IMG/VR virus record: IMGVR_UViG_3300049188_000036
Location: 1 to 37,128 of that record
Length of the DNA: 37,128 bases
Direction: 5' to 3' (one strand)
DNA from: a virus
Each line of letters opens with the position of its first letter. Within the stretch, counting starts at the first letter, position 1. The notes under the pieces were generated by a model. The model saw only the letters and a list, made by a program, of their open reading frames with translations, made no database searches and was not told the origin of the DNA. Position numbers and translations under genes: made by a program. Shown in pieces: positions 26,310 through 30,650 of the stretch.

Positions 26310-26359
26310 GTAGGTAGATATGGAGCACGTATGACCATACGGGCGAGCTATCTACCTAC
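26310..26359. other. attP: Candidate phage attachment site attP
   Basis: A 50-bp site: outer arms GTAGGTAGATA (26310-26320) and TATCTACCTAC (26349-26359), an exact 11-bp inverted repeat. Inside, CGTATG (26328-26333) and CATACG (26336-26341) form a second inverted repeat about the same centre, dinucleotide AC at 26334-26335. Size, nested symmetry and an odd 2-bp centre are what large serine integrases need. It sits at the end of the integrase gene; the integrase stop codon (26356-26358) is within the right arm. The core AC/GT is a prediction. Confidence 0.8.
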
Positions 26360-27774
26360 ACGGAATCCCAGTCATGCTCCACGATTTCGATGGGCCTGCG
26401 GCCTGTCCTGATGCCTTCTTCCCAGTCCTGGAGCTGGATTTTGGCCAGCAGCTTGCCCAACGCCTCGCGCTTCAGCCGGGGAGGGGCCTCGGTCCACTTC
26501 TCCAGCAGCTGGGGCACGATCATGGCCGGCTTGACCTCGGAGTTGACCTCCACGAGCCGCTGGCGGGCCTCCAGAGCCTTCTTCTCCTCCTCGAACTTGG
26601 CCTTCATCCGGTTGTAGACATCGCCGGAGATTTCGTCATCGAGGTACTTGACCGTGAGCGCGTCCAGGCGCGTGGTGTTCTTGGCGATGTCGGCAGCCAG
26701 CTGGGAGGACTTGCGCGCGAGGTTGGGGCTCGGCTTGGTGACCTGCGCGGCCAGTGCGTCGATCTGCGAGGCCACGGTCTGCATCCAGTCCAGCACCGCC
26801 TCCTCCACGTATTGCTCGGAGACCGAAATGCGTGCGTGGCTGCCTTTGAGCAGCCCGTCCCGGCAGGTGTAGCGCCGGTAGACCTTCCCGTTGCGCTTGG
26901 TGGCCCCGCCGTCCATCTTGGCACCGCAGAAGCAGCGCAACAGGGCACTGTAGGCGTAGCCGCCCCCGGTGTTCAGCCCGCCGCCCATCCCTCGGGCAGC
27001 GCGCTCGGAGCGCTTGACCTGATAGGCCTTCCACTCAGCCTCGCTGATGACCCCCTCGTGTGCCCCCGGGAGGAACTCGCCCTTGCTCCTGATGAGGCCG
27101 GCACCGAACCCACGGTCGAGAATCTGGCGCACGCCGTCGTCACGCCAGCCTCCTTTTGGAGTGAAGCCCTCAGAGGCCGCGTAAGCGGCGATTTCCCGCA
27201 GGCTGAGCCCCCGGATGTACCGGAGGTACATCTCGCGCAGGACCGGCCCCGCCGCCTCGTTGACGCTGTACCCAGCAATCTTGTCGTAGTCGTATCCGAA
27301 CCGGGGCAGCCCGTGATGCGGCAGCCCGTTCTTCACCCGGCGCGCATGGGTCTCCTTCCAGGTGTCCCCGATCCGCTCGGACTCGAAGACGGCGAGCTCC
27401 GCGAGCATCCCGCGCGCGAACCGCCCGGAGGAGGTGGTGGTGTCCATTGGCTCGGTGGAGGACTCCAGCCGCCCGCCGATGCCCTCCACGCGGTCCACCG
27501 CGATGGCCCAGTCCATCCGGTTGCGAGCCACGCGGCTGATCTTCCAGACCACGAGGACATCGGCCTTCTTGTCCTCGATCATCTTGACGGCCTGCTCGAC
27601 CTGCCGGCGCTTCCAGAACCGGCCGGAGAGGTCGAGGTCTTCCAGCGTCTCCACGATGTCGTAGCCCATGCGTTCGCAGTGGCTCTGGATGGAGGTCAGT
27701 TGCAGCTCGGGGGAAATCATGCCGTCCCGCTCCTGCGAGACTCGTACATAGGCCACTGCTCTGGGCTTGCTCAT
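26356..27774 (-). CDS. int: Large serine integrase
   Basis: 472 residues. The N-terminal resolvase domain has VRVSQERDG with catalytic Ser13, WKISRVARNRMDW and the E-helix region (SGRFARGMLAELAVFESERI). A recombinase domain follows (about 155-265: GLPRFGYDYD, LSLREIAAYAASEGF, GWRDDGVRQILD). Then comes a zinc segment LLRCFCGAKM...RRYTCRDG...H (Cys281, Cys283, Cys304), a coiled coil (about 340-410) and a C-terminal tail. This is the standard plan of phiC31/Bxb1-type integrases that join attP to attB. TAGAAT lies six bases before ATG 27774 with no ribosome site, so the mRNA is probably leaderless. Confidence 0.96.
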   Translation of the reverse strand: MSKPRAVAYVRVSQERDGMISPELQLTSIQSHCERMGYDIVETLEDLDLSGRFWKRRQVEQAVKMIEDKKADVLVVWKISRVARNRMDWAIAVDRVEGIGGRLESSTEPMDTTTSSGRFARGMLAELAVFESERIGDTWKETHARRVKNGLPHHGLPRFGYDYDKIAGYSVNEAAGPVLREMYLRYIRGLSLREIAAYAASEGFTPKGGWRDDGVRQILDRGFGAGLIRSKGEFLPGAHEGVISEAEWKAYQVKRSERAARGMGGGLNTGGGYAYSALLRCFCGAKMDGGATKRNGKVYRRYTCRDGLLKGSHARISVSEQYVEEAVLDWMQTVASQIDALAAQVTKPSPNLARKSSQLAADIAKNTTRLDALTVKYLDDEISGDVYNRMKAKFEEEKKALEARQRLVEVNSEVKPAMIVPQLLEKWTEAPPRLKREALGKLLAKIQLQDWEEGIRTGRRPIEIVEHDWDSV

Positions 27775-27786: not shown

Positions 27787-27810
27787 AATCGGCCGTCAAG
27801 AGGGTCTTGC

Positions 27811-27852
27811 CTTACTACTTTGGCGTGGTGTAGCTTGGTTTCTACACACCAA
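27811..27852 (+). promoter_or_regulatory. Conserved leader block, second copy
   Basis: CTTACTA (27811-27817) and CTACACACCAA (27842-27852), as at 23354-23394. TACTTTGG at 27816-27823 overlaps the first word and recurs near 28344 and 30655. A rightward promoter TTGCCT with a 16-bp spacer to TGTAGC overlaps it. Confidence 0.45.
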
Positions 27853-27872
27853 GACACACAGCAGGGGGAGCA

Positions 27873-27965
27873 ATGCCGGGAGGATCGAAGCAGCAGGCCA
27901 TCGAGGACGTGGCCGGCCTGTGGGCCAACTACTGGCTCTCCGAGCGTCAGGAGGAGGCGGCATGA
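27873..27965 (+). CDS. Possible small protein (30 aa)
   Basis: Encodes MPGGSKQQAIEDVAGLWANY then WLSERQEEAA; AGGGGGAG is immediately before the ATG, slightly too close. A helix with Trp and Leu on one face. An even shorter frame (MISNGPGY, 27962-27988) with GGAGGAG upstream overlaps its stop. Both lie just before the structured RNA segment; either could be regulatory. Confidence 0.4.
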   Translation: MPGGSKQQAIEDVAGLWANYWLSERQEEAA

Positions 27966-28131
27966 TAAGCAATGGCCCCGGATACTAGGTTGATTTTCCA
28001 AAATCAGCCGATTTGAAGCTACCCAGGTGACCGATCAAAAGGAGCCTGGGGAAAGTCCCCCAAGCTAATGAAGCCGGTAACTGAGACAGGCCGGAACGGG
28101 TGCCCTATCCGAGAAGGGGCTGCGGGGATGA

Positions 28132-28212
28132 GGGACTGTAGCTCAGCGGATAGAGCACTGGTGCGCACGCCAACAGGTACAGAGGTCGCTGGTTCAAATC
28201 CGGCCGGTCCCA
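28132..28212 (+). tRNA. tRNA-like gene with abnormal anticodon region
   Basis: Acceptor GGGACTG/CGGTCCC (one T-G pair) and D-arm GCTC-AGCGGATA-GAGC are good. The class I variable AGGTC, the T-arm GCTGG-TTCAAAT-CCGGC and discriminator A are also good. The segment 28158-28182 where a 17-nt anticodon arm should be is 25 nt: only CTG/CAG pairs at the ends, and a TGGTG-CGCA-CGCCA hairpin forms inside. No U33-anticodon-purine loop can be drawn, so no amino acid is assigned. CCA is not encoded. It may be a decayed tRNA or a deliberate mimic. Confidence 0.6.
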
Positions 28213-28292
28213 CAAGAGCAGCATGAGCACCTGACGCAGTGCCAGTCAGGGCCGATGGCTCTTGCCACGCGGGCGATAAACGCACAGTAAGG

Positions 28293-28325
28293 CCCCCGAG
28301 GTACTTCCACAGCTCGGGGGTTTTC
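28293..28325 (+). terminator. Terminator of the structured RNA
   Basis: CCCCCGAG/CTCGGGGG (28293-28300 with 28313-28320), 12-nt loop, followed by TTTTCTGTT. It ends the RNA 60 bp before the terminase gene. Confidence 0.9.
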
Positions 28326-28384
28326 TGTTGTCCACACCCTGTGTACTTTGGTGTGTAAAACTTCTGGTCTAGTAAGCTATTGAC

Positions 28385-28933
28385 ATGGCCGATGATCTGA
28401 ATACAATGGACGCCTTCACGGCGAAAGTTGTCCCCCTGCGCACCAAGGGCTATTCCTTCGAGGAAATTGCCCTCCGAACGGGTGCCGACGTTGAGGAAGT
28501 TGTCTCCGTCTGGAAAGAGTTCATCGCCTCGCGGACCATCATGCCGCCGGAGGAGCAGGCCGTCCTGCAGGAATTGCGGCTGGAAGTGCTGCTCACGCAG
28601 GTCAATGACCGCCTCCGCTTCGCTGACAGGGCCGAGGATTACGAGCTGGTCATCAAGCTGCTCCAGGAAATCGCCAAGCTGCAGGGCATCAACAAGGAGA
28701 ACAAGCGCGCGGCCGAGAGCGATCTGGTCCAGCTGACCAACGCGCAGACGGCGCTCATCCTGCAGGCCGTGTTCGCCCTCGGCGCTGCCATGACGGAGCA
28801 CGTCGAGCAGGCCTTCGAGAAGCACAAGACCATCAAGGCCATCAAGGGCGAGCTGGCCGGCAACGCACTGACCACGCTGTTCAACGCAGAGGCGCAGCGC
28901 GTCCTGGCACAGGAAGGCCGAGAAGAATCATGA
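28385..28933 (+). CDS. Terminase small subunit candidate
   Basis: 182 residues. The N-terminal segment TKGYSFEEIALRTGADVEEVVSVWKEF is a helix-turn-helix, and a long helical stretch follows (QELRLEVLLTQVNDRLRFAD, LVIKLLQEIAKLQGINKENK) as in oligomeric small terminases. It is two genes upstream of the large terminase, the usual place. No ribosome site is visible; TAAGCT ends six bases before ATG 28385, so it may be leaderless. The family is not certain, since small terminases share little sequence. Confidence 0.7.
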   Translation: MADDLNTMDAFTAKVVPLRTKGYSFEEIALRTGADVEEVVSVWKEFIASRTIMPPEEQAVLQELRLEVLLTQVNDRLRFADRAEDYELVIKLLQEIAKLQGINKENKRAAESDLVQLTNAQTALILQAVFALGAAMTEHVEQAFEKHKTIKAIKGELAGNALTTLFNAEAQRVLAQEGREES

Positions 28934-29157
28934 GCCAAGGCATCTACACGCAGGACGTGACCGACATCCTGGACCTGTTCTACGAGAACGACGCCAGCGA
29001 GCCCGACTGGGCTGCCATCAAGACCCGGCTGTTCGCGGCCACGGACTCCCACTACACCCTCATCATCAACCTCCTGCGCGCCTTCCACGCCGTGTACGAA
29101 GACCCGGCTGCCGCAGCTACCGTCCTGTGGCGGCTGGAGCAAGAGCGGGACGACTGA
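28930..29157 (+). CDS. Hypothetical protein (75 aa)
   Basis: Not recognised. ATG 28930 overlaps the preceding stop as ATGA, and its stop shares bases with the large terminase ATG (TGATG), so it is co-translated with both. Acidic and helical: YTQDVTDILDLFYENDASEP, YTLIINLLRAFHAVYEDP. It might be a packaging cofactor (inference from position). Confidence 0.75.
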   Translation: MSQGIYTQDVTDILDLFYENDASEPDWAAIKTRLFAATDSHYTLIINLLRAFHAVYEDPAAAATVLWRLEQERDD

Positions 29158-30650
29158 TGGCCATTCTTGACGCCATGAGGCAGGCCAGCGCCGCGCTGGA
29201 GCAGGCTGCCCTCAACGAGCGCTACAAGACCGACATCGCCCTCTGGGCCAAGGACAAGCTCGGCTACACCCTCTGGCGCAAGCAGATCGAGATTGCCGAG
29301 GCGCTGCTGAAGTACAAGCGCGTGGCGGTCAAGTCCGGCCACGGCGTCGGCAAGTCCTTTGTCGCGTCCATCATCGTGGCGTGGTGGGCGGACACCCGCA
29401 AAGACCTTGACTCCATCGCTGTCACCACGGCCCCCACGCAGAACCAGCTGGACATCATCTGGGAGTACCTGCGTGACCACAAGCTGAAGGGCAAGATGTG
29501 GGGCGACATCTCGCTCGACAACGAGTGGAAGTCCGAGCTCCGCGTCAAGCGCGCCTTCGGCCGCAAGCCCTCGAACACCAACGAGCACGCCTTCCAGGGT
29601 ATCCACCGCCGTCAGGGTGTGCTCGCGGTCCTCGATGAGTCCTGCGGTATCCCCGAGACCATCTTCACCGCCGTCTCGGCCATCACCACGGGCAAGTACG
29701 ATGCCGCGCTGGCCATCGGCAACCCCGATGATGTGAACACCCCGTTTGGAGCCATCTGGAAGTCCAACAACGAGACGTGGCACAAAATCACCATCAACTC
29801 CTACGACTCGCCCAACATCACGGGCGAGGACTTCCCGGAGGAGGCCTCGGGCGGTCTGGTGACGCTCCAGTGGATCGAGGACCGCAAGAAGGAGTGGGGC
29901 GAGGACTCCCCGCGCTTCCGCTCCAAGGTGCTGGGCGAGTTCTCCATGGACGGCACCAACGCGCTGTTCCCCGAGGGCACCCTGTCCATCGGACGCATGA
30001 CCGAACTGCCCATCAAGCAGGACTCAAAGCCCCGCCTGGGCGTGGACGTTGCCCGCATGGGTGGCGACTACACGGTGGTCTACAAATACCAAGACGGTGT
30101 GGCGCGCTTCCTCGCCAAGTGGAACAAGAGCACCCTGACCGAGACCGCCGCCCGCGTGGTCCAGCTGGCCTTCGATGAGGGTGTGGATGAGGTCAGGATC
30201 GACGGCGTGGGCATCGGTGCCGGCGTCTACGAGATGGTGGCCAACAAGTCCACGGGCCGCTTCGAGACCATTGGCATCATCGGCAACGCGGCCTCCACGG
30301 ACAACGACAAGTGGCTCAACCAGCGCGCCGAGATGTATGACACCATCCGGGAACGGATGCTCAATGGCGGCATCGACATTGATGAGAACGACACCAACCT
30401 CATCACCGAGCTGGGCGATCTGGAATACCACTTCAAGAACAAGCGCAGCGCATTGCAGCTGGCGTCGAAAGAGGAAATCCGGGCCAAGACCGGCAAATCC
30501 CCTGACTATTCTGACGCTTTTGCCTATGCCTCGATGGAGTTGGGCTTTGATCCGAAAGATGCCGTCAACAAAATGGAGGCCGGGACACAATTCGAGACGC
30601 TGCCCGAGGATTTCCTCTACGCCTACGAAACAGTAATAAGCCCGTTCTAG
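29157..30650 (+). CDS. terL: Terminase large subunit
   Basis: 497 residues from ATG 29157. ATPase domain: KSGHGVGKS (Walker A, 59-67), VLAVLDES (Walker B with Asp160, Glu161) and the coupling segment. Nuclease domain: LGVDVARMGGDYTVV (Asp297, Asp304), VRIDGVGIGAG and PDYSDAFAYA near the end supply the RuvC-like acidic residues. This motor packages DNA into the procapsid and cuts it. It is followed by a 7-bp hairpin TGGTGCT/AGCACCA (30660-30666 with 30680-30686) and a -10-like TAGAAT in the gap before portal. Confidence 0.95.
   Translation: MAILDAMRQASAALEQAALNERYKTDIALWAKDKLGYTLWRKQIEIAEALLKYKRVAVKSGHGVGKSFVASIIVAWWADTRKDLDSIAVTTAPTQNQLDIIWEYLRDHKLKGKMWGDISLDNEWKSELRVKRAFGRKPSNTNEHAFQGIHRRQGVLAVLDESCGIPETIFTAVSAITTGKYDAALAIGNPDDVNTPFGAIWKSNNETWHKITINSYDSPNITGEDFPEEASGGLVTLQWIEDRKKEWGEDSPRFRSKVLGEFSMDGTNALFPEGTLSIGRMTELPIKQDSKPRLGVDVARMGGDYTVVYKYQDGVARFLAKWNKSTLTETAARVVQLAFDEGVDEVRIDGVGIGAGVYEMVANKSTGRFETIGIIGNAASTDNDKWLNQRAEMYDTIRERMLNGGIDIDENDTNLITELGDLEYHFKNKRSALQLASKEEIRAKTGKSPDYSDAFAYASMELGFDPKDAVNKMEAGTQFETLPEDFLYAYETVISPF

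Follow-up and report, generated by a model that had tools for sequence, protein, structure and literature searches.

Between a minus-strand serine integrase gene and the plus-strand packaging genes of a virus of soil bacteria (IMG/VR record IMGVR_UViG_3300049188_000036; 37,128 bases, positions 1 to 37,128 of the record, hereafter called the window) lies a region that a preliminary description took to be a structured RNA with an embedded tRNA-like domain. We asked what kind of RNA this is and how it might act. The parts named in that description, a hairpin, further pairings, a tRNA-like domain, a 3' fold and a strong terminator, were all present between 27988 and 28325. The divergent neighbour (26356..27774, minus strand) encodes a large serine recombinase with Pfam Resolvase, Recombinase and Zn_ribbon_recom matches (phrog_95 integrase, 9e-93); the proximity to an integrase, which had also been pointed out, holds in the window and is not general among the relatives described below. 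Downstream on the plus strand is a gene for a DNA-binding protein (28385..28933; phrog_19906), which from its position is probably the terminase small subunit. It is followed by the packaging block, consisting of the terminase large subunit gene (29127..30650; phrog_2, 1e-31; 42% identical to Arthrobacter phage terminases) and the portal, protease and capsid genes.

Upstream of the RNA, we recognized by eye a putative plus-strand promoter, TTGCCT-N18-TAGCTT (27807..27836), which a sigma-70 scan of the window did not report. The same pattern (a TTG-rich hexamer, ~18 nt and a TA-N-N-N-T-like hexamer) occupies the same place in three related loci (L008, L026, L030; L numbers denote loci) and is less clear in L031. 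Operator-like inverted repeats (ACACACCAAG / CTTTGGTGTG) lie on either side of the RNA unit, with complementary 22-nt arms (82%) at 27840..27861 and, before the next gene, at 28339..28360, 477 nt apart; this arrangement suggests that the RNA and the next gene are under common control. A small plus-strand ORF of 30 codons (MPGGSKQQAIEDVAGLWANYWLSERQEEAA; 27873..27965) is conserved in L008, L017, L026, L030 and L031 by sequence comparison, and because it ends just upstream, the RNA is probably the 3' portion of a longer transcript. The related phages share a KEQAIQ..A..YAxWLS core in this ORF, for which a Pfam search returned no match.

The RNA region itself begins with an A/U-rich hairpin formed by the inverted repeat GGTTGATTTT/AAAATCAGCC (27988..28009, plus strand, as are all parts that follow), an equivalent of which can be read in L008 and L031. 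Next come a segment that we call motif A (28021..28131), the tRNA-like domain (28132..28213), a 3' domain closed by CAAGAGC/GCUCUUG in the predicted fold (28213..28264; the closing sequence also occurs in L017) and an intrinsic terminator with a 10-pair stem before TTTT (28293..28325). Counterparts of the terminator were found by script in L030 and L032 and can be discerned by eye in L008, L017 and L031, where the loop is the same. The window, L008, L026, L030 and L031 form a group that shares the promoter-like TTG..-N18-TA.... pattern, the small ORF, motif A, the tRNA-like domain and the terminator of hairpin and T-rich tract, and we infer that in the window motif A is co-transcribed with the 30-residue ORF, the tRNA-like domain, the 3' hairpin domain and the terminator as one RNA of ~500 nt.

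The region from 27975 to 28330 was more stable than its shuffled versions (z = -3.9; none of 100 shuffles as stable), and motif A alone (the 111 nt 5' of the tRNA-like domain) stood weakly above shuffles (z = -1.9). As the folding energy of motif A is weak, comparison with relatives was needed, and we treat covariation as the decisive evidence. A first blastn search against phages gave a single short real match outside the tRNA, in Arthrobacter phage Bridgette (86% over 57 nt), the others being tRNA matches. Pattern scans and further blastn searches added the Arthrobacter phages Faja, RadFad, MidnightRain, BillyTP, QuinnAvery, Cole, Nandita and Elesar, a prophage of Arthrobacter sp. ok362 and many viral contigs. 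We built a covariance model, R1, from 21 of the 28 distinct sequences assembled, the window included (75.2 bits, E 2e-15); the scores of these 21 are high by construction, and L068, L069 and L081-L084 are independent of the model. Searches of host genomes with R1 located L068 (45 bits) and L069 (32.5 bits), both in Micrococcaceae genomes, and, in the genus to which the ok362 strain belongs, L082-L084 (70-72 bits). At E <= 0.001, R1 matched 4 of the 206 genomes sampled from this genus and, across the phylum, 1 of 396 (the ok362 genome itself), counts in which weak members may be missed because these large samples were scored with stricter filters. A search of plasmids for motif A gave no match. 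As far as seen, motif A is an element of phages and prophages of Micrococcaceae hosts, its 28 distinct sequences coming from Arthrobacter phages, viral contigs and Micrococcaceae prophages (about 30 related viruses). A hit at 27.8 bits (L070) was left out of the member count. We rejected pattern hits L021-L023, L025 and L034-L054, which lack the motif context, as chance matches, and a weak model hit, L071, which falls in an apparent transporter coding region; at the corresponding site of phage JasmineDragon (L055) there is a tRNA-Trp, but R1 found no match to motif A.

Aligned relatives showed that motif A consists of a hairpin (P1), a helix (P2) that closes a junction, a second hairpin (P3) and an optional H-type pseudoknot (P4). 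In the window, which has the long form with P4, P1 pairs 28022-28027 with 28045-28050 and continues across a UGA/AG internal loop into an inner CC/GG (28031-28032/28041-28042), and P2 pairs 28056-28060 with 28124-28128, enclosing P3 (CCGGU/GCCGG, 28074-28078/28090-28094) and P4 (28097..28119; S1, CGGGU/AUCCG, 28097-28101/28107-28111; S2, CCCU/AGGG, 28103-28106/28115-28118). The consensus runs from P1 (stem, YGA/AR internal loop, inner CC/GG and a variable loop, which is a GCAA tetraloop in L081) through J1/2 (GAAAN or GAACA), P2, J2/3 (with CAAG..CUAAUG-like letters), P3 (CCGGU/RCCGG) and ACGCA to the 3' strand of P2, with P4 of the long form inserted at ACG^CA.

Across the 28 sequences, 92.0% of cells were paired, vs 18-48% when the partner strand was slid by 1-3 columns; 71 double-changed cells were observed vs 24 ± 4 in shuffles, and the covariation score was 0.383 vs 0.129. 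P1 and P2 carried most of this signal, with double changes at four of the six outer P1 pairs and four of the five P2 pairs. Since MAFFT had split P2 into two registers, pairs were counted first on a hand alignment, in which P2 was 99% paired vs 66% for helix-shuffled partners, and then on covariance-model alignments. P3 was 97% paired and almost invariant, becoming CAGG/CCUG in L068 and CUGG/CCAG in L069. The same two divergent prophages carry alternative paired sequences for P4: in L068 it is replaced by CGUU/AACG and GCCCCC/GGGGGC, as many pairs being reached by 1 of 300 shuffles, and the L069 version is weaker, with 34 of 300 shuffles reaching as many. P4 thus has few independent changes behind it, and L068 and L069 support both P3 and P4.

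The conserved pairings 5' of the tRNA are real, yet they differ from the minimum-energy fold of the single sequence, which pairs P4 with the tRNA D arm and is not supported by the comparative structure. The 5' half of P4 (28100-28111) and the D arm of the tRNA-like domain (28147-28158) are complementary at 11 of 12 positions, an alternative fold favoured by energy alone; this complementarity is absent from the relatives and is perhaps due to chance.

Searches of Rfam 15 with the window (E up to 5) and with 19 loci (gathering thresholds) returned no family other than tRNA, the weak hits at E up to 5 lying far below gathering scores. Models of group I introns, RNase P RNA, tmRNA, T-boxes and known riboswitches and ribozymes gave no match at E up to 5, in agreement with the earlier view that the RNA is not a tmRNA, an RNase P RNA or a group I intron. 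We also compared letters with individual ribozymes: GAAA and CUAAUG of the hammerhead are present in the wrong order relative to the stems, and a resemblance to twister (AAUGCCGGU...GCCGG) was not accompanied by an Rfam twister match. A literature search found no description of motif A in the open literature, most subscription journals being outside its scope. The suggestion of a GOLLD or ROOL RNA fits insofar as these are also phage and prophage non-coding RNAs beside tRNAs, with complex pseudoknotted folds and no known function. We nevertheless assign the RNA to neither family, as Rfam gave no match (E up to 5) and motif A spans ~85-110 nt and the window RNA ~340 nt without an ORF, compared to more than 800 nt in many GOLLD members (PMC12286853). 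With no match in Rfam and compensatory changes in P1 and P2, outside the tRNA part, the proposal of a new phage non-coding RNA is supported, and we conclude that motif A is almost certainly a new structured RNA family. The novelty concerns the RNA family, which has no catalogued relatives and strong comparative support.

Motif A lay on the sense strand in every case. In 14 loci (window, L001, L003, L006, L008, L017, L018, L026, L030-L033, L065, L082), the acceptor stem of a tRNA or tRNA-like domain begins exactly 3 nt after P2 (in L017 this stem has 6 bp). In ~11-13 others (L010-L016, L028, L029, L056, L068, L083, L084), it mostly ends only a few nucleotides short of a GGAGG-like site, behind which is a gene for an HTH, HNH, terminase or unknown protein; no tRNA directly adjoins motif A in Cole, QuinnAvery, Elesar and L068. 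Four members depart from the 3-nt rule: L004 (tRNA at +143), L007 (ambiguous), L069 (no tRNA) and L081 (tRNA-like domain further downstream). In Bridgette and Faja, motif A is 0.7-1 kb from the right genome end and the terminase genes start at the left end. The terminase large subunits encoded downstream belong to phrog_2, phrog_38 and phrog_19179, and in one contig (L032) motif A precedes a primase gene instead. From this variety we conclude that motif A moves as a module and is not dedicated to a single terminase or motor; a host factor is the more likely partner. The same observation speaks against a packaging RNA tied to one type of motor, as in phi29, which had been among the functions first suggested.

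The tRNA-like domain of the window was called Val(cac) by ARAGORN and matched Rfam tRNA (RF00005) at 50.6 bits, both calls placing its 3' end at 28212/3. It has a complete acceptor stem (7/7), a complete T stem (5/5) and a D arm, and we found no anticodon arm of 5 bp and a 7-nt loop with U33. We applied an anticodon-arm test (at least 4 of 5 pairs, a 7-nt loop and U33) to 19 domains near motif A. Eight had a canonical arm (Asn, Leu, Trp, Ser), ten, including that of the window, failed or passed only in an impossible position, and L030 was ambiguous. As pairing in the acceptor and T arm was a condition for finding these domains, the intactness of these arms is partly built into the search, and their contrast with the anticodon arm suggests, rather than proves, that the tRNA-like domains keep the former while dropping the latter. 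The idea of a tRNA mimic is partly supported by the window domain itself, with its intact acceptor stem and T arm and non-canonical anticodon arm, but does not extend to those relatives that have normal tRNAs at the same place. The tRNA-like domain of tmRNA similarly keeps an acceptor and T arm and lacks a decoding arm; in contrast, the window domain retains a D arm, and neither Rfam nor ARAGORN called a tmRNA. L007, L016, L027 and L065 share a conserved tRNA-like sequence, GGGCUGAGGAUUGC..GCCUUGACGACCUGAGAUGGUCGAGCGGUUCGAAUCCGCCCCAGCCC, that has no canonical anticodon arm. Two further tRNA-like domains (L017, upstream of 1749; L008, minus strand, 3' of motif A) have a paired acceptor and T arm around ~90-nt inserts and resemble expanded or split tRNAs.

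Motif A belongs to the leader of the packaging (late) operon, where a fixed 3-nt linker joins it to a tRNA or tRNA-like domain, or else the ribosome-binding site of the following gene comes directly after it. Our best guess, offered tentatively, is that it acts in cis and serves late leader RNAs as a boundary or folding module. P1, P3 and P4 would pack around P2, the end of which would stack on, or be read together with, the acceptor stem or the ribosome-binding site. Motif A could in this way isolate and position the downstream unit within a mosaic leader and control its exposure or its processing by RNase P or other RNases, and the tRNA-like domains would serve, through their acceptor and T arms, as folded sites of processing or protein recognition, not as decoders. 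Consistent with a cis-acting module are the compensatory changes in P1 and P2, the double changes in P3 and the alternative pairs of P4 among 28 distinct sequences, the exact junctions to tRNAs and ribosome-binding sites, the occurrence of motif A away from tRNAs and ahead of several terminase families, and the failure of 10 of 19 tRNA-like domains in the anticodon-arm test with acceptor and T arms intact. However, that integrity is partly a search criterion, four members lie outside the 3-nt rule, L032 precedes a primase gene, and RNase P could be impeded, not aided, by a helix that stops 3 nt short of G1; shared ancestry within subgroups might also account for the exact junction, although the genes around it are not the same. 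Bolder, and in our judgement doubtful, is the proposal that motif A and the tRNA-like domains lacking an anticodon arm form a new class of phage leader RNA, shuffled horizontally module by module, that needs no phage protein to reprogram host transcription or RNA processing where packaging operons begin.

Motif A might instead be a nascent-RNA antiterminator that folds on leaving RNA polymerase and causes pauses and terminators to be ignored across the late operon, by analogy with the put RNA of phage HK022, a nascent antiterminator of ~70 nt (PMC9378689). Like put, it is a short structured RNA (~85-110 nt) that opens phage operons and apparently acts in cis before unrelated genes, in this case ORFs and tRNAs alike ahead of unrelated packaging genes, and an intrinsic terminator lies downstream in the window, L030 and L032. 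We nonetheless consider this reading rather unlikely: these three were the only terminators found by script in 26 loci (a few more are visible by eye), motif A lies inside operons in L018, L032, L033 and L081, and an antiterminator would have no need of a tRNA exactly 3 nt away. Moreover, put consists of two stem-loops and belongs to lambdoid phages, whereas motif A, found in phages of Micrococcaceae, is attached to tRNAs and folds into a junction that P2 closes around P3 and a pseudoknot.

Motif A and the tRNA-like domain could also form a stable, discrete RNA that acts in trans by binding a host or phage factor, as an anti-defence decoy or through a translation or packaging factor. The putative promoter, flanking operator-like repeats and terminator of the window group point in this direction, as do tRNA-like domains that keep acceptor and T arms, often without a canonical anticodon arm. 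Action in trans is unlikely. Motif A forms part of the 5' UTR in Faja, Cole, Nandita, Elesar, L028, L029, L068 and L083, and no terminator separates it from the ORF, which suggests action in cis; the variety of terminase families, together with L032, contradicts a packaging role.

We regard as improbable a ligand-binding or self-cleaving element, that is, a riboswitch or a new ribozyme, with control or cleavage at the junction. The strong conservation of loop and junction nucleotides (e.g., GAA in J1/2 and GCA in J3/2), the pseudoknot and the proximity to ribosome-binding sites would suit such an element, and theta ribozymes provide a precedent for phage ribozymes beside tRNAs (PMC10879173). 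Those HDV-like RNAs, from phages of Bacteroidota and Bacillota, are likewise fused to tRNA genes, but at the 3' end, whereas motif A is 5' of the tRNA; in addition, Rfam gave no ribozyme or riboswitch match (E up to 5), and a riboswitch ahead of a tRNA would have no evident expression platform. A DNA-level element, such as a recombination boundary or a site near cos, is very improbable: most phages do carry motif A close to a genome end or to terminase genes, and the modules beside it are reshuffled from phage to phage, but the helix-by-helix compensatory change, inserted pseudoknot included, the fixed junctions in one orientation to tRNA genes or ribosome-binding sites and the position of L032 away from packaging genes argue against it.

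Should the target of motif A prove to be RNA polymerase or RNase P, phages would have a further means of controlling host machinery, one that needs no protein. Named isolates grow on Arthrobacter globiformis B-2979, a host in standard laboratory use, so that the reason why phages attach such RNAs to tRNAs and late operons is directly testable.

The leaders of the relatives are mosaics of further conserved non-coding blocks, for which Rfam searches of two leaders (L029 and L016; E up to 5) gave no convincing match. One block, in L004, L006, L027, L028 and L029, reads GACYCCCGCGGGACGGCGGGCUAAGACCGUCCCUCCG..GGGCC-stem-ACUGCAGAA-stem-CUGGCACYAAGGA; it has no Rfam match (L029 searched) and is probably a second RNA module. 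Directly 3' of the tRNA in L003, L065, L028 and L029 is another conserved block, CUGAUCGAAAGCAUGCCGACCAAC..ACGCGGCC.UCGCAAGUAGAUC, closed by GAUC/GAUC. Finally, the leader RNAs of L001, L017, L027, L030 and L081 contain a repeated 12-nt string, ACAACUGAAUAG (shorter in L030), with a GC-rich hairpin downstream of it in several.
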